33,340 nt of DNA from NCBI GenBank assembly GCA_029565675.1, contig JAKQNP010000039.1, positions 1-33,340 of the forward strand, given 5' to 3'. Positions 1 through 30,448 of this stretch are shown here, piece after piece. The stretch is from a bacterium (GTDB lineage: Bacteria > Zhuqueibacterota > Zhuqueibacteria > Residuimicrobiales > Oceaniaggregativiventaceae). The position numbers and the translations under genes were made by a program. The notes under the pieces were generated by a model that was not told the DNA's origin, ran no database searches, and was given only the letters and a program-made list of their open reading frames with translations. How positions within the stretch are numbered: position 1 is the stretch's first letter; the number at the start of each line of letters is the position of its first letter.

Positions 1-26
1 ATGGCCCGGAGACGGAAAACTGAGTG

Positions 27-101
27 TGGGCCGTACTGGGTTCGAACCAGTGACCTCCTGCTTGTAAGGCAGGCGCTCTGAACCAGCTGAGCTAACAGCC
101 C
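27..101 (-). tRNA. tRNA-Val (anticodon UAC)
   Basis: Read on the minus strand this folds into a full cloverleaf. The 7-bp acceptor stem pairs GGGCTGT with ACGGCCC with one G-U wobble. The D arm contains AGCTCAGCTGG, the anticodon stem CCTGC/GCAGG closes loop CTTACAA, and the T arm carries GGTTCGAACC. The anticodon TAC (complement of positions 64-66) reads valine GUA codons. The CCA tail is not encoded, so it would be added after transcription. The gene starts 5 bases after the stop codon of the small membrane-protein gene on the same strand, so the two are probably co-transcribed from the promoter near 355-383. Confidence 0.96.
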
Positions 102-106
102 GTCGG

Positions 107-346
107 TCAGGATTCTTTGGATCCGGATTTCCGCCGCCAAATAATGGCCAGCGGAATCAGGATGCAATATCCCAACACCAAAACAATCGGCGCTGCCGTC
201 AGCGACGTCGGCCCTTCGGCCGGTCCAACGCGCAATAGCATATAGCCGATAACCAGCGCGATGAACGCCAATCCGAACAGCAGATAATTGATTCTGGAAA
301 AGCCTAAAGGCTTTTCAGCTCGTTTTTTTGCACTCTTTTTATTCAC
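107..346 (-). CDS. Small two-helix membrane protein (DUF3098-like)
   Basis: This encodes 79 residues: a very basic N-terminus (lysines and arginines in the first 12 residues), a hydrophobic helix at about 21-39, a short Gly/Pro-rich loop and a second helix at about 51-69, then a charged tail. The length, the Asn-Tyr before the first helix and the loop resemble the DUF3098 family of small inner-membrane proteins, whose function is unknown. The start is GTG; no other in-frame start precedes the first helix. A very strong promoter lies directly upstream, with its predicted transcript start only about 1-3 bases before the GTG, so the mRNA may be leaderless. The tRNA-Val gene follows 5 bases downstream. 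The family match is by pattern only. Confidence 0.75.
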   Translation of the reverse strand: MNKKSAKKRAEKPLGFSRINYLLFGLAFIALVIGYMLLRVGPAEGPTSLTAAPIVLVLGYCILIPLAIIWRRKSGSKES

Positions 347-354
347 AGCATGGA

Positions 355-383
355 AATATACATAAAATGGTACTTTTTGTCAA
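355..383 (-). promoter_or_regulatory. Sigma-70-type promoter for the small membrane protein and tRNA-Val
   Basis: On the minus strand a perfect -35 box TTGACA (378-383) is separated by exactly 17 bases from the -10 box TATATT (355-360; one mismatch to consensus). The predicted start of transcription is near 347-349, practically at the GTG start codon at 346. Confidence 0.8.
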
Positions 384-467
384 GCTAATTTTGCCACCCC
401 CTGTTCGCCCGTTTTCGTTCTTTCTTGTCTTGCTTTTGAACCGACGATTTGTTACTTTTTTGTCAAT

Positions 468-497
468 TCGATACCGCTGGCAGTCGCAAAGTATAAT
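468..497 (+). promoter_or_regulatory. Putative selD promoter
   Basis: A perfect -10 hexamer TATAAT lies at 492-497. The matching -35 region at 468-474 is weak, and a better TTGTCA at 460-465 sits too far away (26 bases). The predicted transcript start near 503-505 is just ahead of the TTG start proposed for selD at 516, which supports that start and gives a short leader. It is divergent from the promoter at 355-383. Confidence 0.45.
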
Positions 498-515
498 CGT
501 TTTCTGGAAAAAAAG

Positions 516-1571
516 TTGGAAAATCCACAACTGAAAAAATTCAAGCGCTTGACGGAAACCGTCAAGTGCGCCGGCTGAGCGTCCAAACTCGCGCCAACCG
601 AGTTGGCCGCAGCTTTGGAAAAGCTGCCTCCTATTACCGATCCCCGTTTGCTCGTCGGCGCCAATCAGGCCGACGACGCCGGCGTGGTGCAGATCCGCGA
701 CGACCTGGCCCTGGTGCAGACCGTGGATTTCTTTACCCCGATCGTCGATGATCCCTATACCTATGGCCTGATCTCCGCCGCCAATTCGCTGAGCGATGTC
801 TATGCCATGGGCGGCAAGCCGCTGTCGGCGCTCAACATCGTCGGGTTTCCCAAGGATCTCTTTCCCATCGAGGTCCTCACTGCCATTCTTCAGGGCGGCC
901 AGGACAAGTGCGCCGAGGCCGCGACCCTGATCGTCGGCGGCCACACGATCAGCGACGACGAGCTCAAGTACGGCCTGGCAGTCACCGGCCTGATTCATCC
1001 CAAAGATGTGATCACCAACGCCGGCGCCTGCCCCGGCGATCTGCTCTATCTGACCAAGCCGATCGGCACCGGCACCATCACCACCGCTCTCAAGGCCGGC
1101 TTGGGCTCGGCAGAGATGGAGCGCCGCGTTTGCGAGGTGATGGCCCGCCTGAACCGGGATGCGGCGGCGGTCTGCAACCGCATAGGCGTGCACGCCTGCA
1201 CCGATATCACCGGCTTTGGCCTCATGGGCCATGCCCTGGAACTGGCCAGAGCCAGCCGGGTCGGGCTGGTCTTTGAATTTCACCGCATTCCCATCCTGCC
1301 CGATGCGCTGATCACCGTGGCGCAAGGGGCTGTGCCAGGCGGCAGCCGCGCCAACCGGCTGTTCGTCGCTCCGGATGCCGACTACAGCAGCCGGCTCAGC
1401 GAAGAACAGATTCTGCTCCTCTGTGATGCCCAGACCTCGGGCGGACTGTTCATCGCAGCGGCGGAAAACAAACAGAAAGCGATTGAGTCGGCATTCATCG
1501 ACGCCGGTGTCGAGGCCGTCTGCATCGGCTGGACCGTCGCCGAACCCGTCGGGCGAATCGCCGTGCGCTAG
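516..1571 (+). CDS. selD: Selenide, water dikinase (SelD), itself a selenocysteine protein
   Basis: SelD makes selenophosphate from selenide and ATP, the selenium donor for selenocysteine synthesis and tRNA modification. The conserved body is clear: a DDAG near the ATP site, the stretch TVDFFTPIVDD, ANSLSDVYAMGG, then DITGFGLMGHALE and PGGSRAN. A conventional call would begin at TTG 603 and lose the N-terminus. Reading the same frame upstream through TGA at 576-578 gives RLTETVKCAG-U-ASKLAP, the catalytic motif of SelD. Sec21 aligns with E. coli Cys17 and Lys24 with Lys20. From TTG 516 the protein has 351 residues, the normal family length (about 345-350). The Shine-Dalgarno (TGGAAAA) is weak, so the exact start is less certain than the Sec. 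The host must therefore decode UGA as Sec. Confidence 0.93.
576..610 (+). promoter_or_regulatory. Sec UGA codon with candidate bacterial SECIS hairpin
   Basis: The in-frame TGA at 576-578 is followed immediately by a hairpin. Strand 579-591 pairs with 599-610: three pairs at the base, one mismatch (582/607), two G-C pairs, a bulged A at 585, then six uninterrupted pairs closing the 7-base loop at 592-598. Placement directly after the UGA and a bulge in the stem are as expected for a bacterial SECIS that binds SelB. The loop begins C-G and lacks the E. coli GGUCU loop, so its fit to the consensus is partial. Confidence 0.6.
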
Positions 1572-1709
1572 CCATGCTCGCGGTTTGCGATGCGACGAAT
1601 GCTGCGAAGCCGCTGAAATTCTTTTTACCTGGTTGCACGGCAGCATGCTTTCGGTCTTGTTTGCGTTCCGGCCCTTTTTTCAACCCTTGATCAACGAGGA
1701 AGCTGATCT

Positions 1710-2723
1710 GTGAAACCTCTCGTGCCACTTGGGACGCTCGGCCTTTCGTGTTTGCCCATCCTTTTCAGCGGCTGCAGTGAGGCAGATGATCATTTTGTCC
1801 CCTGGCGTTTTGCGCACGTCGCCGATATTCAGGTGGGATCGCCGCGATCGTTTCGCTTTGCGCCGGCGTGGAACGAGAACTGGCGAACCGCCCGCGGCCA
1901 GATCATCGCGCTTGAACCCGAATTTCTCCTCGTCGGCGGCGACCTCAGCCGCGACGGCTCCATCCATGGCTTTGAACTCGAAGCGATCAAGGCCGATCTC
2001 GATTCTCTGCCTTTTCCTTGCCATGTCATCCCCGGCAATATGGATACCGGCAACAAACACGCCGATCGGCAAGGCGCCCGAGGCGACCGCGATGATCTGC
2101 TGCTGAATGTCACCTCGGAACAGCTCGAGCAATTCTCTTCAGTGTTCGGTCCCTTGTGGTGGAGTTTTGTGCAAAAAAACCTGCGCGTCTCGGCCTTTTG
2201 CGATATGATCGTCGGTTCTGGCTTGCCTGAAGAAGCCCAACTCTGGGAATGGCTCGGAGCCCAAAAGAAGGCGGTGCCGGCTGCACATCATATCTGGATG
2301 ATGCACTATCCTCTGTTTGTCGATCGCCCGGACGAGGGGAATTGGGACATCGCGGATTCGAACCATTATCTCGACTGGTATTTTACGATCGACGAGCCGG
2401 GGCGCAGCCGGTTGCTGCAGCTTTTTATCGACACCCGCACGGATCGCGTCATCACAGGACACGTGCACTGCCGAAAAGATCACCATGCCCACGGAATCGC
2501 CTTTGACCTGGCACCGGCGACGTGCTTTGCTCAATGGCAGGATCGTTGGCCGGACGGCGATCCGACTCTGGGATTTTATCTCTACACGGTCTATAGCGAT
2601 TACATCGAAAAAACTTTTGTGCCTTTGGAAAAGGTCTCCTCTCGGCCGGGCTACGGTCCGGGAGGACACCCCAAGCCGGCAGAAAGAGACTACAGCCGGG
2701 CGTGGGAGAAAGAGGGCGACTGA
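1710..2723 (+). CDS. Lipoprotein metallophosphoesterase (calcineurin-like)
   Basis: This 337-residue protein has a lipobox ending LFSGC (Cys22), so it should be a lipid-anchored envelope protein. Calcineurin-like metal-binding motifs follow in order: ADIQ (Asp39), GGDLS (Asp78), GNMD (Asn110), MHYP (His199) and GHVH (250-253). Two usual histidines are altered: DxH reads DIQ, and the catalytic His of GNHD is replaced by Met111. Activity may therefore differ from ordinary phosphodiesterases, and the substrate is unknown. The start is GTG, preceded by GAGGA at about 10 bases. It lies 138 bases after selD and 54 bases before a second metallophosphoesterase lipoprotein, probably in the same transcript. 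Confidence 0.82.
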   Translation: MKPLVPLGTLGLSCLPILFSGCSEADDHFVPWRFAHVADIQVGSPRSFRFAPAWNENWRTARGQIIALEPEFLLVGGDLSRDGSIHGFELEAIKADLDSLPFPCHVIPGNMDTGNKHADRQGARGDRDDLLLNVTSEQLEQFSSVFGPLWWSFVQKNLRVSAFCDMIVGSGLPEEAQLWEWLGAQKKAVPAAHHIWMMHYPLFVDRPDEGNWDIADSNHYLDWYFTIDEPGRSRLLQLFIDTRTDRVITGHVHCRKDHHAHGIAFDLAPATCFAQWQDRWPDGDPTLGFYLYTVYSDYIEKTFVPLEKVSSRPGYGPGGHPKPAERDYSRAWEKEGD

Positions 2724-2777
2724 ATGTTTTTGCATTCGGTTAACAGCAAATCGGGTTCAAGATGCAGGAGAATAAGA

Positions 2778-4625
2778 ATGAAACGAAAGAAACGGCTCTT
2801 TGCGCTGGTCCTGTTGGTTTTGGCCGCCTGCGCATCGCACCAGCCTGCTCAGATTCAAATCGATCGATCGGCTGCGGTTAATCCCTGGACCCATCTGCAG
2901 TTGAACAACGATCCCGATAATTTTCAGTTTATCATCGCTTCCGATCGCACCGGCGGCAAACGGCCCGGAATTTTTAGCCGCGCGGTGGAAAAGATCAATC
3001 TGCTGCAGCCCGAACTGGTCATGTGCGTCGGCGATTTGATCGAAGGTTATGCCGAAGATGAAACCCTGGTCAATGAACAATGGGATGAATTCGACGCGTT
3101 GGTCAAACGGCTGCAGATGCCTTTCTTCTATCTGCCGGGCAATCACGATCAAACCAACTCTGTCATGCAAAAAATCTGGGCGAGCCGCCGCGGCCGTTCT
3201 TTCTATCACTTTGTGTACAAAAACGTTCTCTTTCTCTGCCTGAACAGCGAATCCAATGTCAGCAATCCCCAGGCCATAGGCGGATTGTCGGCCGAACAGC
3301 TGGGCTATTTTCGCAGAGTGCTCGCCGAGAAGCAAAATGTTCGCTGGACTCTGGTTTTCCTCCACAAACCGCTGTGGACGATGGACGATCCTTCCTGGCT
3401 TGAATTCGAAAAGATGTTGCCCGGGCGACAGCTCACGGTTATTGCCGGCCATGAGCACGCTTATAGAAAGTTTGATCGAAACGGCAATGACTATTACATC
3501 CTGGCCACCACCGGCGGTGTGAGCAACCTGCGCGGGTTGTCGCACGGCGAATTCGATCATATCGTCTGGGTCACCATGACCGACAACGGTCCTGTTATGG
3601 CCAACTTGATGCTCGACGGCATCTATGCCGACGATATGCGCCATGCCGATATGGGCAATTTGCTGACGAAACAGCCCTTTACGATTGCACCGCTCTTTGT
3701 GGACAGCGACCTCTTTACCGAGCCGGCAGCTCTGCAAATCCAATTGATCAACGATGGTTCTGCACCCCTGGATGTGCAGGGTGTGTTTCATCCCAATAGC
3801 CATATCTTGCCGGAGCTGACCACCCTTGAGCGAACTTTAACGCCCCGTTCGTCCGAAAAGATCACCGTCGATATGCGCAGCAAAGAACCGATCGCAATCG
3901 AGGAGATCGAACCGCTGCGGATTTCCTGGACTTTGAAAAGCGAGCTGCCGAACAATACGGATTTTATGATCGAGGTGGAAAACACCGCCCGGCCGGTGCG
4001 GCGCTATCCATGCCGCCGCCGCCAAACGCCGGTACAGGTCGACGGTCATCTGGACGAGTGGAGCGCTCTGCCGTTTGTCGTGACCAAGCCCGCCCAGATC
4101 CAGTTCGATCGCCGGTGTTATCTCGGCCCTGAAGACGGCTCGTTTGCCTTCGCGGTTGAATACGATGACGAGAACCTCTACCTCGCCGTGCAGGTTCAGG
4201 ATGAGGTTGCCTATGCCGGTCCGACCGCAGCGCCCTGGCAACAGGACGGTATCGAAATCCGCCTGGATGCGCAACCGGCTGAAGTGAGAGATTACGGCAA
4301 AAACATCACCGAAAACATCGAGATTCTCTTTATCGGATTGACCCCGGAATTGCCGGAGCGAGAGATGCTCTTCTACGATCGTGACCACATGCCCGTCGGA
4401 TTGCAAGCCAGATGCATTTTGACTGCGCAAGGCCACAACACCGAGATCGCTGTGCCCATCGCTTATTTGCATGAAAAGCAGGGAGAGCCTTGGAGCGCCT
4501 TCCGCCTGAACATCACGGTCGATGACTTTGACGGTCCGGATGAAGCCGGCACCCAATTGTGGTGGCAGCCCGACTGGCGCTGGCCGATCAGCGTGTCGGG
4601 ATCCGGAACCTTTATCAAAGAGTGA
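2778..4625 (+). CDS. Lipoprotein metallophosphoesterase with C-terminal CBM9-like domain
   Basis: The start ATG at 2778 has the ribosome site CAGGAG 7-8 bases upstream and places the signal peptide first, with lipobox LAAC (Cys18). An upstream in-frame ATG at 2724 lacks both. The 615-residue product has a calcineurin-like phosphoesterase domain (about 50-280) with SDRT (Asp56), GDLIEG (Asp86), GNHD (121-124), FLHKP (His196) and GHEH (224-227). A beta-rich linker (about 300-405) leads to a module at about 420-613 resembling carbohydrate-binding family 9: VDGHLDEWSAL, then DDENLYLAVQVQDE and WQQDGIEIRLD. CBM9-like modules often sit on exported sugar-active proteins, so it may act on phosphorylated or teichoic-like glycans. 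That substrate is inference. Confidence 0.85.
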   Translation: MKRKKRLFALVLLVLAACASHQPAQIQIDRSAAVNPWTHLQLNNDPDNFQFIIASDRTGGKRPGIFSRAVEKINLLQPELVMCVGDLIEGYAEDETLVNEQWDEFDALVKRLQMPFFYLPGNHDQTNSVMQKIWASRRGRSFYHFVYKNVLFLCLNSESNVSNPQAIGGLSAEQLGYFRRVLAEKQNVRWTLVFLHKPLWTMDDPSWLEFEKMLPGRQLTVIAGHEHAYRKFDRNGNDYYILATTGGVSNLRGLSHGEFDHIVWVTMTDNGPVMANLMLDGIYADDMRHADMGNLLTKQPFTIAPLFVDSDLFTEPAALQIQLINDGSAPLDVQGVFHPNSHILPELTTLERTLTPRSSEKITVDMRSKEPIAIEEIEPLRISWTLKSELPNNTDFMIEVENTARPVRRYPCRRRQTPVQVDGHLDEWSALPFVVTKPAQIQFDRRCYLGPEDGSFAFAVEYDDENLYLAVQVQDEVAYAGPTAAPWQQDGIEIRLDAQPAEVRDYGKNITENIEILFIGLTPELPEREMLFYDRDHMPVGLQARCILTAQGHNTEIAVPIAYLHEKQGEPWSAFRLNITVDDFDGPDEAGTQLWWQPDWRWPISVSGSGTFIKE

Positions 4626-5505: not shown

Positions 5506-5531
5506 CACCACCCGTCAATTTGAGGCTTCCA

Positions 5532-6515
5532 GTGCGCTATACAATTATCGCCACCCTGGGTCCTGCCAGCGCACAGGCGGAACAGTGGTCCGCGCTGCTC
5601 GATGCCGGCGTCTCCGCCTTTCGGCTCAACACTTCACACCTGACTCTTGACGCTCTTTCCCGCTGGCTGCAATCGCTCGATGATTTTTCCCGGCGGCGCG
5701 GCGAGCAAACACCGCTGATCCTCGATCTGCAGGGCAGCAAATGGCGGTTGGGACGATTCGAGCCTTTGGTTCTCAATCCAGGAGATTCCGTTGTCCTGAT
5801 CCACAGCGCCGAGGCGATCGAGCCGGGCACCTTGCCGGTGCCGCACGCCGATTTTTTCCGCGCTGCTCTGCGCTCGAGCGGCCGCATCTCGATCAATGAC
5901 GCCCGTTCCGTTTTGGCTGTGGAATCGGTCGGCGACGATAGGGTGGTTGCCCGGGTGGTGGCAGGGGGGACCGTCTCGCCGCGCAAGGGCATCACCTTTG
6001 TCGATTCCGATTATCGCCTGGAAGTACTGAACGAAGCGGACCGGCTCGCGGTCGATTTGACCGCTTCTTTGGACGAGATCCGCTATGCGGTTTCCTATGT
6101 CCGCGATGGCCATGAGATGGAGCGCTATCGCGACCTGCTCGGCAAAGATCGCCATCTGATCGCCAAGTTGGAGCGGCCGCAGGCGATCGCCGAAGCCGAC
6201 AGAGTGGCTGCTGCCAGCGATGAGCTGTGGTTGTGTCGCGGTGATCTCGGCGCTGAAATCGGATTGCGCGCCATGGCCGAAACCGTGCACCGCTTTGCCG
6301 CCGGCTTGTCGTCTCTATCGGTTCCGGCGCTTCTCGCCGGCCAGGTCCTGGAGCACATGAACGATCACCCGCTGGCGACCCGCGCCGAGCTCTGCAACCT
6401 CTACGACGCACTGGCTGCCGGCTTTAGCGGCGTCGTGCTCTCCGATGAAACCGCAATCGGCCGCTTTCCGGCGGAGAGCTGCCGCATGGCGGCGCTGTTT
6501 CGCCGGTCGAACTGA
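5532..6515 (+). CDS. Pyruvate-kinase-like protein lacking the C-terminal domain
   Basis: The GTG start at 5532 has GAGG 6-7 bases upstream and gives MRYTIIATLGPAS, the usual pyruvate kinase opening. The 327-residue product keeps family landmarks: FRLNTSH (Arg31, Asn33, Ser35, His36), a small B-like domain (about 75-150), AKLE (Lys212, Glu214), CRGDLGAEI (Asp238), TRAE and SDETAIGRFP. It ends there, so the C-terminal domain of normal kinases (about 470 residues) is missing. Some active-site segments are changed: DTKGPEIRTG reads DLQGSKWRLG, the ATQ threonine is Gly270, and LSGETA is SDETA. It may be a specialised or catalytically altered kinase acting on another enol or 2-oxo acid; that is inference. 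No frameshift is apparent. Confidence 0.82.
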   Translation: MRYTIIATLGPASAQAEQWSALLDAGVSAFRLNTSHLTLDALSRWLQSLDDFSRRRGEQTPLILDLQGSKWRLGRFEPLVLNPGDSVVLIHSAEAIEPGTLPVPHADFFRAALRSSGRISINDARSVLAVESVGDDRVVARVVAGGTVSPRKGITFVDSDYRLEVLNEADRLAVDLTASLDEIRYAVSYVRDGHEMERYRDLLGKDRHLIAKLERPQAIAEADRVAAASDELWLCRGDLGAEIGLRAMAETVHRFAAGLSSLSVPALLAGQVLEHMNDHPLATRAELCNLYDALAAGFSGVVLSDETAIGRFPAESCRMAALFRRSN

Positions 6516-20843: not shown

Positions 20844-22907
20844 ATGAAATCAATTGTTTTGCGTACATGGTTATGGTTTTTTGTGGCAACATCCGTTTTG
20901 GCTGCCGGCAACTCTGCTTTTAACGGCGAGTGGGTGCTGGTGCCGCAAAAGAGCACGGAGATCGATCTGTACGGATCGCTCGAACTGTCTTTTACACTCG
21001 CGGGCGACCGCGTCACCGTGATTGAGAAATGGGGCGGCAACAGATCCTTTGCCGATACTTTGAACCTCAAGGCGGACGGCTCGACCAACCGTCTCGCTTT
21101 TCGCGATCGGGTCTGGCCGACCAATGTGTTCATGGGAATCGCTCTGAATCCCGGCACTGAGCGCAAGATCAAAGCCTACTGGTCTGCCGACGGCAACACC
21201 CTGACTCTCGATTCCGATTACCCTCTGCGCGGATCACAAGGCCTTCGCACGGTCAGCTCAAAGCACCGCTATCAGCTCAACCCGCAAACCGGGATTCTGC
21301 GCTACCGCATCGACCGCTCGACCCGTCCCGATGCCGCGCCGATCGAATATGTGCTGAAGCGCAAAGGCACACGGGAAGCGTTTGTCATGCAGCTGGCTGA
21401 TGAGTGGCAGGTCGAGGGCAAACTGGATGAGAATGCCTTTTTGATCAGCTTGCAGGGAGTCGCCAACAGCCAGGGTCCGACTCTTTATTTCATCTATCCG
21501 CCGAATTGGGCTTTCAACTATACCCCGGCGATCTATGATTTTTATCACAATGAACGCCACTATACCTTTACCCGGCTGAACAGCAAAGAAGAAGCGATCG
21601 ATCGGCTCAAAGATCGCGTACAAGGCTATGTGGTATGGGATCCGCAGGTGCGCACGTCGCTGATCGTTGCCTTTACGGCGGCGGGTTTGGAGCGGGCGGT
21701 GGTGGTGAGCCCGCGGTTGATTCCGTTGGCGGAAAAAGCCGGCTTGAAAAAGGTCGAGGATCTGCGCAACATTTTTGTCGGCAAATCCGATTACGAGATC
21801 TATTCCTGGGCCTACGATCGCTACTGGCCGCGCTGCAACAAGGAGCTGATCATCTGGCTCGGCGGCGAGTACGGCGATGTGATGAAACCCGGCGTGGCCG
21901 ATTGGGGAATCTACAAAAAAGCCTTTTTCAATGACCTCTCCAGTGTCGAGAGCGACACCCTGGAATACGGTTTGGCGCGCAAGCTGCTTGGCGAGATGAC
22001 GCCGATGTCGCTGGTGATGGGGTGGCACTCTTACAAAAAAGACAAAGAGCGCGACCATGTCAAATTGACTTCCAATTTCGGCCATACCGTGGAAGGCTTG
22101 CATACGCTGCCCAACATGAGCTTTAACAGCCAGGTGCCGGCGACTCCCGGCTTCCAATTCCGCAACAACCACCATCTGCGGCCGGACAGCACCTACAAAG
22201 TGGAAAAAAAGGTCTATATCACCTGCGTACAAACCGATGGTCTGGGCATCGGCGCCTGGACCAAACCCGGGCGCGGCGAGATTCCCTATGCCTGGGAAGT
22301 GATCATGAACTATCACTGGCTGGCGCCGGCGGTGATCGAATTTTGGTACAGTCAGGCCACGCCGAACGATTATTTTATCGGCTGTCTCTCCGGACCAGGC
22401 TATATGTACCCCAAAGCCGTACCGCCCAAATTCATGCCCACTCTGCTCACTCGCGCCTATGAGCTGATGCAAAAACTCGATCTCAAGGTTTTTGAGACCA
22501 TGGATTATTCCGAGGGAGCCACAGTCGAGGGCAACAGCGATCTGCCCAAAGAAATCGTCGATTTCTATTATGACGCCATGCCCGGGGCGATCGGTTTTGT
22601 CAACGGTTACGCGCCGTCCTATACCTTTAGCCATCGCGATGGCCGGCCATTCATTTCCTATGACTACTATCTGTCGCCAACGCGCACCGAAACCGACGCA
22701 GTGGCCGATTTGCATGAACTCGCAGCGATCAACTCGGACCGGCCCTATTTTCTCCTTATGCACGTGCGCGAAGCGAGCGACGTCAAACGGGTCAAGAGCA
22801 TTCTCGATCGATTGGGACCCGAGTTCCAGTTGGTGCCGCTGGACGTTTTTCTCCATCTGGCCGGCAAAAAGCCGACATTCAAGGAGCGCTATTTGACCAG
22901 GCCTTGA
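20844..22907 (+). CDS. GxGYxYP-family exported protein, putative glycan-active enzyme (paralog A)
   Basis: The 687-residue product has a signal peptide (hydrophobic 5-20, VLAAGN). Residues about 25-165 form a lipocalin-like beta domain (GEWVLVPQKSTEIDLYGSL..., ending IEYVLKRKGTR). Residues about 180-420 match the GxGYxYP N-terminal region, and about 430-687 the GxGYxYP domain with its name motif GPGYMYP at 517-523. Other conserved blocks are WHSYKKDKERDHVKL, QTDGLGIGAWTKPGRGEIPYAWE and MDYSEGATVEGNSDLP. The family is a predicted glycoside hydrolase of unknown specificity, often near polysaccharide genes. The ribosome site is GGAGGATAGG. It is the paralog of the gene at 28385, with the same length. 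The hairpin at 22936-22975 may end its transcript. Confidence 0.86.
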   Translation: MKSIVLRTWLWFFVATSVLAAGNSAFNGEWVLVPQKSTEIDLYGSLELSFTLAGDRVTVIEKWGGNRSFADTLNLKADGSTNRLAFRDRVWPTNVFMGIALNPGTERKIKAYWSADGNTLTLDSDYPLRGSQGLRTVSSKHRYQLNPQTGILRYRIDRSTRPDAAPIEYVLKRKGTREAFVMQLADEWQVEGKLDENAFLISLQGVANSQGPTLYFIYPPNWAFNYTPAIYDFYHNERHYTFTRLNSKEEAIDRLKDRVQGYVVWDPQVRTSLIVAFTAAGLERAVVVSPRLIPLAEKAGLKKVEDLRNIFVGKSDYEIYSWAYDRYWPRCNKELIIWLGGEYGDVMKPGVADWGIYKKAFFNDLSSVESDTLEYGLARKLLGEMTPMSLVMGWHSYKKDKERDHVKLTSNFGHTVEGLHTLPNMSFNSQVPATPGFQFRNNHHLRPDSTYKVEKKVYITCVQTDGLGIGAWTKPGRGEIPYAWEVIMNYHWLAPAVIEFWYSQATPNDYFIGCLSGPGYMYPKAVPPKFMPTLLTRAYELMQKLDLKVFETMDYSEGATVEGNSDLPKEIVDFYYDAMPGAIGFVNGYAPSYTFSHRDGRPFISYDYYLSPTRTETDAVADLHELAAINSDRPYFLLMHVREASDVKRVKSILDRLGPEFQLVPLDVFLHLAGKKPTFKERYLTRP

Positions 22908-28000: not shown

Positions 28001-28319
28001 ATATTCCTCAAATAAACAACACGTTCGGTGATGAACAAAACCGATAAAAATACACAACCATTTTACATTCTTATAATTGTTTGACTCCCCCGGGAGAGGA
28101 CCGTCCAATGTTATGACGATCGTGTGCTAGGCCCCTGTTGTGAAATGCGATATCCCTGACACGTTATCAAATATAGAAAATTAATCACTAGATACAAGGT
28201 TTTTTTTGCGAATTGTCTCTATCTTCGCGGTCACCTCATCTTGTGTGTCGATCAACTGACAGGTCCCAAACCTTTTGCACCATTTGCCTGGCGCCGCAGA
28301 GTGCACAGGCATAAAATGC

Positions 28320-28348
28320 TTGAATCGCACGGCAAAAAGCCGTATTGT
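28320..28348 (+). promoter_or_regulatory. Weak promoter candidate for GxGYxYP paralog B
   Basis: TTGAAT (28320-28325) and TATTGT (28343-28348) are 17 bases apart, each matching consensus at four of six positions. The spacer contains the small hairpin ACGGC-AAAAA-GCCGT... at 28328-28342. This differs from the strong promoter and long structured leader of paralog A. Confidence 0.3.
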
Positions 28349-28384
28349 TTAAAGTTCGAACCGAGAATCCAACAAGGAGGTAAA

Positions 28385-30448
28385 ATGAAAACAATCCATA
28401 TCAGCATTATGTGTGCTCTGCTGCTCTTGATTTCGTTATCATTGGCTGCCCAGGACCACAATTCTTTGCAGGGCAATTGGACGCTGGTACCGCAAAAAAG
28501 CAGCGAGATCGATCTCTACGGCACCCTGCAGCTCGATTTTCAGCTCAATGCTGATGAAATCCGCTTGATCCAGCAATGGGGGCGTGGGCGCAGTTTCAAC
28601 GACACTCTCCTCCTCAAAACCGATAAAGCAGTGGAACAGGTGATCGCCGATCGTGTTTTCCCCACCAATGTCTTTATGGGTCTGATGATGCCGGTGGGAG
28701 CCAAACGGAGCCTCAAAGCCTCCTGGCAGCAAAAGGACCTAAAGCTTGTGGTCGATGAGAGTTTCCCCCTGCGCGGCTCGCAGGGCGCGGTTCCGGTCCA
28801 GGTTCAGCATACCTATACCCTGTCGCCGCAAGAGGATATCCTCACCTACACCATCAACCGCACCAGCCGCAAAAGCGGTCCGCCGATCCAATACGTGCTG
28901 AAACGCACCGGCAGCCGCATTGCCTGGACCATGGAGCTTGAGGATGACTGGGCAATCGACAGCAAGCTGCCCGAGCAGGCCATGTTGATTTCGCTGCAGG
29001 GCCTGGCCAATGCCGAGGGACCGAATCTCTATTTCATCTATCCCAAGACCTGGGATTTTCGCTTTACCCCCAACGTTTTTGATTTCCTCCAGAACGAGCG
29101 CCATTATACTTTTACCAAGCTGAGAAACGCCGAACAGGCGCTCAATACTTTTCGCAATGCGATCAAGGGCTATGTGGTCTGGGACAAGGAGGTGCGCACC
29201 TCGCTGATCGTCGCCTTTACTGTGGCCGGACTGGAACAGGCGGTGGTGGTGTCAGAAGAATTGATCCCGCTGGTTGAAAAATTGGGAGTGCCCCTGGTCG
29301 AGGATTTTCGCGGCAAATTCACCGGCCAAACGGATGCGCAGATCTACAGCTGGGCGATCGATCAGTACTGGGATCGATGCAGCAAAGAGTATATCGTCTG
29401 GATGGGCGGCGAGCACGGCACCATCATGAAACCCGGTGTGGCTGACTGGGGCATCACCAAAAAAGCCTTTTTCAACGACCTCTCCACAAAAGAAACCGAC
29501 AGCGAAGAATATGCCCTGGCCAACCGCTTGCTGGCAGACATGAAACCCCTCTCCTATGTTTTTGGCTGGCATTCCTACAAAAAAGATAAAGAGCGCGATC
29601 ACGTCAAACTGACCTCCAGCTATGCGCTCCGCGTCGAGGGCCTGCACACCCTGCCGAATATGAGTTTCAGCAGCCAGGTGCCTGCATCGCCCGGTTTTGT
29701 CTTTAAAAACAACCACAACCTGGTGCCGGGCAAGACCTACAAGCCGAAGAAAAAAGTCTATATCTCCTGCATCCAGACCGATTGTCTCGGCCTTGGCGCC
29801 TGGACGCAGCCCGGTCGCGGCGAGATCCCCTATGCCTGGGAGGTGACCATGAACTGGTCCTGGCTGGCGCCGGCGATGATGGAATATTTCTATTCGCAAG
29901 CCACACCCAACGACTATTTCATCGGCTCGCTGGGCGGCCCCGGCTATATGTATCCGAAAGCCATCCCGCCGCACTATCTCCCGCAAATCGTCGACATTGC
30001 CTACGATCTCATGCAGAAACTCGATCTCAACGTTTTCGAGATCATGGATTACTCCGAGGGCGCCACTGTCGAAGGCAATTCGGATCTGACCCGTGAAGTG
30101 GTGAACACCTATTACGAGCGCATGCCCGGCGCCATCGGTTTTGCCAACGGCTATGCACCATCTTACACCTTCACGGCTAAAGACGGCCGACCGTTGTTGT
30201 CCTTCGATTACTACCTCTCTCCCAGCCGGCCGGAAGCCGATGCCGTCGCCGATCTGCTCGAACTGGCGGCCATCAATGCCGAGCGTCCCTACTTTTTGCT
30301 CATGCATGTGCGGCAGTGGAGCGACATCACCCGGGTCAAGTCCATTCTCGACAAACTGCCGGCCGAGTTTGAACTCGTGCCTCTCGATATTTTTCTCAAG
30401 ATGGCCGGCCAAAAACCGACTTTCGAAGAGCGATTTTTGGAGCGCTGA
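28385..30448 (+). CDS. GxGYxYP-family exported protein, putative glycan-active enzyme (paralog B)
   Basis: The ATG at 28385 has the ribosome site AAGGAGG at 5 bases and starts a signal peptide (hydrophobic 6-21, SLAAQ). The 687-residue product follows paralog A from end to end: N-terminal beta domain (GNWTLVPQKSSEIDLYGTL...), GxGYxYP N-region, and the C-terminal domain with GPGYMYP at 518-524. By eye the C-terminal half is clearly more conserved between the two copies (long identical runs such as WHSYKKDKERDHVKLTS) than the first 160 residues. It is followed by a GC-rich hairpin and, 170 bases on, by a heparinase-type lyase, so the two may serve the same substrate. The family activity is predicted, not known. 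Confidence 0.86.
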   Translation: MKTIHISIMCALLLLISLSLAAQDHNSLQGNWTLVPQKSSEIDLYGTLQLDFQLNADEIRLIQQWGRGRSFNDTLLLKTDKAVEQVIADRVFPTNVFMGLMMPVGAKRSLKASWQQKDLKLVVDESFPLRGSQGAVPVQVQHTYTLSPQEDILTYTINRTSRKSGPPIQYVLKRTGSRIAWTMELEDDWAIDSKLPEQAMLISLQGLANAEGPNLYFIYPKTWDFRFTPNVFDFLQNERHYTFTKLRNAEQALNTFRNAIKGYVVWDKEVRTSLIVAFTVAGLEQAVVVSEELIPLVEKLGVPLVEDFRGKFTGQTDAQIYSWAIDQYWDRCSKEYIVWMGGEHGTIMKPGVADWGITKKAFFNDLSTKETDSEEYALANRLLADMKPLSYVFGWHSYKKDKERDHVKLTSSYALRVEGLHTLPNMSFSSQVPASPGFVFKNNHNLVPGKTYKPKKKVYISCIQTDCLGLGAWTQPGRGEIPYAWEVTMNWSWLAPAMMEYFYSQATPNDYFIGSLGGPGYMYPKAIPPHYLPQIVDIAYDLMQKLDLNVFEIMDYSEGATVEGNSDLTREVVNTYYERMPGAIGFANGYAPSYTFTAKDGRPLLSFDYYLSPSRPEADAVADLLELAAINAERPYFLLMHVRQWSDITRVKSILDKLPAEFELVPLDIFLKMAGQKPTFEERFLER

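Follow-up and report, generated by a model that had tools for sequence, protein, structure and literature searches.

A predicted selenocysteine-containing SelD and its pairing with a Cys-type NifS-SelD fusion in a Residuimicrobiales genome

The selD locus

The window studied here (33,340 nucleotides) is one entire contig (C9) of a draft genome of 4.43 Mb in 64 contigs. It encodes selD on the forward strand at positions 516-1571, with a TTG start, one in-frame TGA and a product of 351 residues, as delimited by the translation, by the TIGR00476 profile and by the alignment of start codons. The frame has no stop from 366 to 1571 other than the TGA at 576-578. Under translation table 11, the longest ORF of this frame begins at TTG 603. 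Both Sec21 and Lys24 lie upstream of this codon, so that a protein started there would lose the active site, as originally predicted.

We searched the read-through product with protein profiles. It matched the NCBIfam profile for SelD (TIGR00476) with 378.5 bits (cut-off 125), and residues 11-319 of the protein corresponded to positions 1-310 of the 311 of the profile. Since the match covers the protein from residue 11, it starts 5' of the TGA, i.e., of Sec21, and reading through this codon does restore the full N-terminus of SelD. The alignment of starts placed TTG 516 at the same codon as the ATG of the same-genus genome G014 and of loci L120 and L111, and the remaining relatives start within a few codons of this position. 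The proposed start at TTG 516 is thus borne out, and the Sec is numbered residue 21.

The original prediction called this gene a hidden selenoprotein. The TTG 603 ORF is indeed truncated under table 11, but Sec-SelD belongs to the textbook families of selenoproteins, and the gene is therefore hidden from naive gene callers only. The effect of the truncation has also to be qualified. This copy loses Sec21 and Lys24, but a SelD fused to NifS and free of UGA (see below) stays in the annotated genome. Hence, truncating the copy of the window alone still leaves an annotated SelD.

The contig also carries other genes. A pyruvate kinase-like ORF of 331 residues (5520-6515) matched only the barrel domain of this family; the search reported no match to the C-terminal domain of pyruvate kinase within this ORF. 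Two putative glycoside hydrolases of the GxGYxYP type (20844-22907 and 28241-30448) are encoded in the same 33 kb, together with other carbohydrate-related genes.

Conservation of the active site and of the TGA

Residue 21 of the read-through product aligns on the catalytic Cys of the solved SelD chains 3u0o and 2yye. The codon for Cys18 (TGC, 567-569) precedes the TGA and gives a CxxU motif (C-A-G-U), and Lys24 (AAA, 585-587), a conserved residue, follows three residues past the Sec in the translation and in the alignment with relatives. The expected arrangement, with Sec at the catalytic Cys position and Lys at +3, was therefore recovered against both the solved chains and the relatives.

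We surveyed 22 genomes of the same order. Thirteen of them carry stand-alone SelD genes of the Sec type, 15 loci in all, each with exactly one TGA and always at this column. The encoded proteins range in identity to SelD of the window between 85% and about 48%. The motif KCAG-U-ASK, including the Cys of CxxU, was found in 14 of the 15 loci; the distant L115 has KAAG-U-AAK. The other relatives found in public genomes, of many phyla, have TGA at the same column in most cases and Cys in the rest. The maintenance of the TGA across loci and phyla rules out a sequencing error.

One further locus (L113, genome G019), a Cys-SelD cut by the end of a contig, was excluded from these counts. It has the N-terminal motif typical of the fusions described below, yet in the tree it is placed beside the Sec-SelD of G020, and its sequence is possibly chimaeric or recombinant.

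SECIS-like hairpins downstream of the TGA

Two hairpins follow the TGA. The better candidate (609-627, GCAGCUU-UGGAA-AAGCUGC) has a stem of 7 bp and a G at the second position of the loop. The model of bacterial SECIS elements requires a loop of 3-9 nt with a G in the first two positions, a stem of 4-16 bp and a distance of 16-37 nt from the UGA to the loop (PMC13188914). The hairpin satisfies this model, at the upper limit of the published spacing (37 nt). Across 14 loci, 95.9% of the pair cells were paired, with compensatory changes on both sides in two of the seven pairs. The covariation score was matched by six of 500 shuffles, and slid controls scored much worse. When the stretch was recoded synonymously 5000 times, only 83 of the versions had a hairpin of this strength. 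The second hairpin (593-607, GCCAAC-CGA-GUUGGC) is a weaker candidate, in which relatives conserve the outer pairs well and the inner pairs poorly.

We also compared Sec- and Cys-type genes. Hairpins of the bacterial SECIS type at or below -7 kcal/mol were found after 61 of 83 Sec-SelD codons and after none of the 24 Cys-SelD codons, counts that are not independent because the sequences are related. The evidence for the 609-627 hairpin as a SECIS element is good, if not decisive. Taken alone, we grade it as moderate, given that it stands at the far limit of spacing and that, within selD itself, 52 of 330 codon positions are followed by an equally strong hairpin. A scan of positions 1-3000 of the window with Rfam matched no SECIS family, and its sole credible match was a tRNA-Val. 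Structures from a fold of 50 nt (576-625) and other early alternatives, which missed or cut the 609-627 hairpin, were discarded for lack of convincing covariation.

Selenocysteine machinery and other selenoproteins

The use of Sec in SelD implies a complete Sec machinery elsewhere in the genome, and this was found. Profile searches identified selA (553.8 bits, curated cut-off 267.9) and selB (375.9 bits, curated cut-off 242.25), and tRNA-Sec (selC; L001, 1501-1592) matched its full model with 73.2 bits (gathering score 47) and has the anticodon TCA. All three genes are on contigs other than that of selD. Within the order, a search for selB identified it in 17 of the 22 genomes; of the 13 genomes that have a Sec-SelD, 11 are among these.

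Further selenoproteins had also been anticipated, and one was identified in a search for AhpC-TSA proteins: a peroxiredoxin of the PrxU type with an in-frame TGA, encoded on the minus strand (L138, 1303-1914; C62, 442111-442719). When read through, it has 203 residues, with Sec at the peroxidatic Cys position (DFTFV-U-ATE), and it matched NF040737 with 381.8 bits (cut-off 270). All 13 matches found in the order, in 13 genomes and including this one, have a single TGA.

The selenoproteome was sampled by searches made family by family. In this genome they gave no match for the alpha subunit of formate dehydrogenase or for AhpD-like CMD proteins, and no selenouridine synthase (ybbB) above the cut-off. 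The search for GrdB/PrdB had zero matches in the genome, and likewise zero in the controls, so that it carries no weight for or against these proteins. Since neither formate dehydrogenase alpha nor selenouridine synthase was found, these searches narrow the use of Sec, and with it the reason for keeping the system, to SelD, PrxU and any family outside the searches made.

A second SelD fused to a cysteine desulfurase

The genome encodes a second SelD, in a protein of 737 residues without internal stop, on the minus strand (L019, 1486-3699; G000:C56:146646-148859). Residues 392-700 matched TIGR00476 with 395.8 bits, and the active site has a Cys (GLG-C-ACK), free of UGA. Residues 4-376 had their best match with TIGR03402 (495.1 bits), below the equivalog cut-off of 530.75; this N-terminal half is therefore described as a cysteine desulfurase of the NifS/IscS type, rather than with certainty NifS. 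We refer to the protein as a NifS-SelD fusion. In the tree, the SelDs fused to NifS form a clade separate from the Sec-SelDs of the order. This clade also holds fusions from single genomes of Eisenbacteria and Bacteroidales.

The two types of SelD occur together or apart. Both were found in this genome (G000) and in G007, G010, G011, G013, G015, G016 and G021. Sec-SelD was found alone in G001, G004, G005, G014 and G020, all five with selB. Three genomes (G003, G006 and G018) gave the fusion as their sole SelD match, and two of these, G003 and G018, also have selB. These are draft genomes, in which absences are unsure. selB occurs under all three patterns. Given the genomes with just one type, Sec-SelD and the fusion are probably each able to act alone. 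Some genomes have more copies: G013 encodes two distinct Sec-SelDs (L103 and L120) besides a fusion, i.e., three SelD genes, and G007 also encodes two distinct Sec-SelDs (L129 and L115).

Comparison with known systems

Compared with known bacterial Sec-SelDs (TIGR00476; surveys in PMC1794560 and PMC4561486), the gene of the window shares the catalytic Sec, the Lys at +3 and a match over the full length. The Sec machinery and a hairpin similar to bacterial SECIS elements are likewise present, and we found no essential difference. Its particular traits are the CxxU motif, present in about 5.6% of the single-domain Sec-SelDs in marine data (PMC2398784), and a contig separate from those of selA, selB and selC.

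In the literature consulted, prokaryotic NifS-SelD fusions are described for only two cases, one of them in Geobacter sp. FRC-32, and also for protists (PMC4561486, PMC2398784). In the fusion of this genome the domains are arranged as in that of Geobacter, with NifS N-terminal and SelD C-terminal, but the SelD half has a Cys where that of Geobacter has a Sec. Unlike in the two reported cases, the fusion is common across the order studied here, often alongside a Sec-SelD. Photobacterium profundum has a pair of selD genes, one with Sec and one with Cys (PMC1273633), and thus resembles this genome in encoding both types. The Cys copy of P. profundum lies beside ybbB (selenouridine), whereas here it is fused to NifS, in a genome with no ybbB above the cut-off.

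Interpretation

The UGA is in frame and conserved, homology extends on both of its sides, and selA, selB and tRNA-Sec are in the genome, as expected of a bacterial selenoprotein. We are nearly certain that the gene of the window encodes a selenophosphate synthetase (selenide, water dikinase) that contains Sec, decoded from the UGA.

A TGA that arose by sequencing error or by mutation from TGC or TGT, in what would truly be a Cys-SelD, or that marks a dead gene, might be suspected in a draft assembly of 64 contigs with an intact second SelD of Cys type. But 13 genomes of the order, with 15 loci, have the identical TGA, as do relatives in distant phyla, and apart from this codon the frame is unbroken and conserved over its full length, which makes this extremely improbable. 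We give just as little credit to a UGA reassigned throughout the genome, or read as an amino acid other than Sec: no point in its favour was found, the genome has SelA, SelB and a tRNA-Sec whose anticodon is TCA, and TGA terminates ordinary genes, e.g., the one that follows selD (1710-2723). Moreover, the codon falls on the catalytic Cys in both of the TGA-bearing genes studied (selD and PrxU).

Somewhat less remote, though still very unlikely, is that the gene of the window is a paralogue that does not synthesise selenophosphate, with the NifS-SelD fusion as the working enzyme. The fusion does contain an intact Cys-SelD, which matched the SelD profile with 395.8 bits, and it is the only SelD match in three genomes, two of them with selB. 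However, five genomes carry selB with a Sec-SelD alone, and the U-A-S-K of the active site is conserved.

The working of such an enzyme can be outlined from what is established for the family. The UGA at 576-578 would be decoded as Sec by SelB and Sec-tRNASec, with the hairpin just downstream directing this step. SelD would then produce selenophosphate from ATP and reduced selenium, by means of Sec21 and Lys24 in a mobile N-terminal loop, and SelA would use selenophosphate to convert Ser-tRNASec into Sec-tRNASec. Since SelA consumes the selenophosphate made by SelD, SelD would help to make its own active-site residue.

Sec-SelD is among the commonest selenoproteins of bacteria (PMC1794560, PMC13188914). 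The gene of the window is therefore judged to be of a well-known type, to which it adds another case. It illustrates that a selenoprotein truncated by a plain gene caller can be spotted from the sequence alone. A survey of KSB1 found selA, selB and selD and reported selC as absent (PMC9012183). The order studied here appears to be a lineage that falls within the KSB1 phylum or near it. In contrast to that survey, we have a full Sec-decoding system, including tRNA-Sec, in an uncultured lineage near KSB1.

The less ordinary part is the pairing with the Cys-type NifS-SelD fusion, which might be of interest to specialists. We tentatively consider a system of two enzymes, although we think it rather doubtful. 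In such a system, the fusion would mobilise selenium, perhaps from Sec, and make selenophosphate without need of Sec, and would in this way prime or rescue the synthesis of Sec-SelD once selenium is again available after a period of starvation. If true, this would be a conserved answer of the order to the problem of an enzyme that needs Sec to make its own Sec. The pairing of Sec-SelD with Cys-type NifS-SelD across the order makes the question of how Sec-SelD starts up testable.
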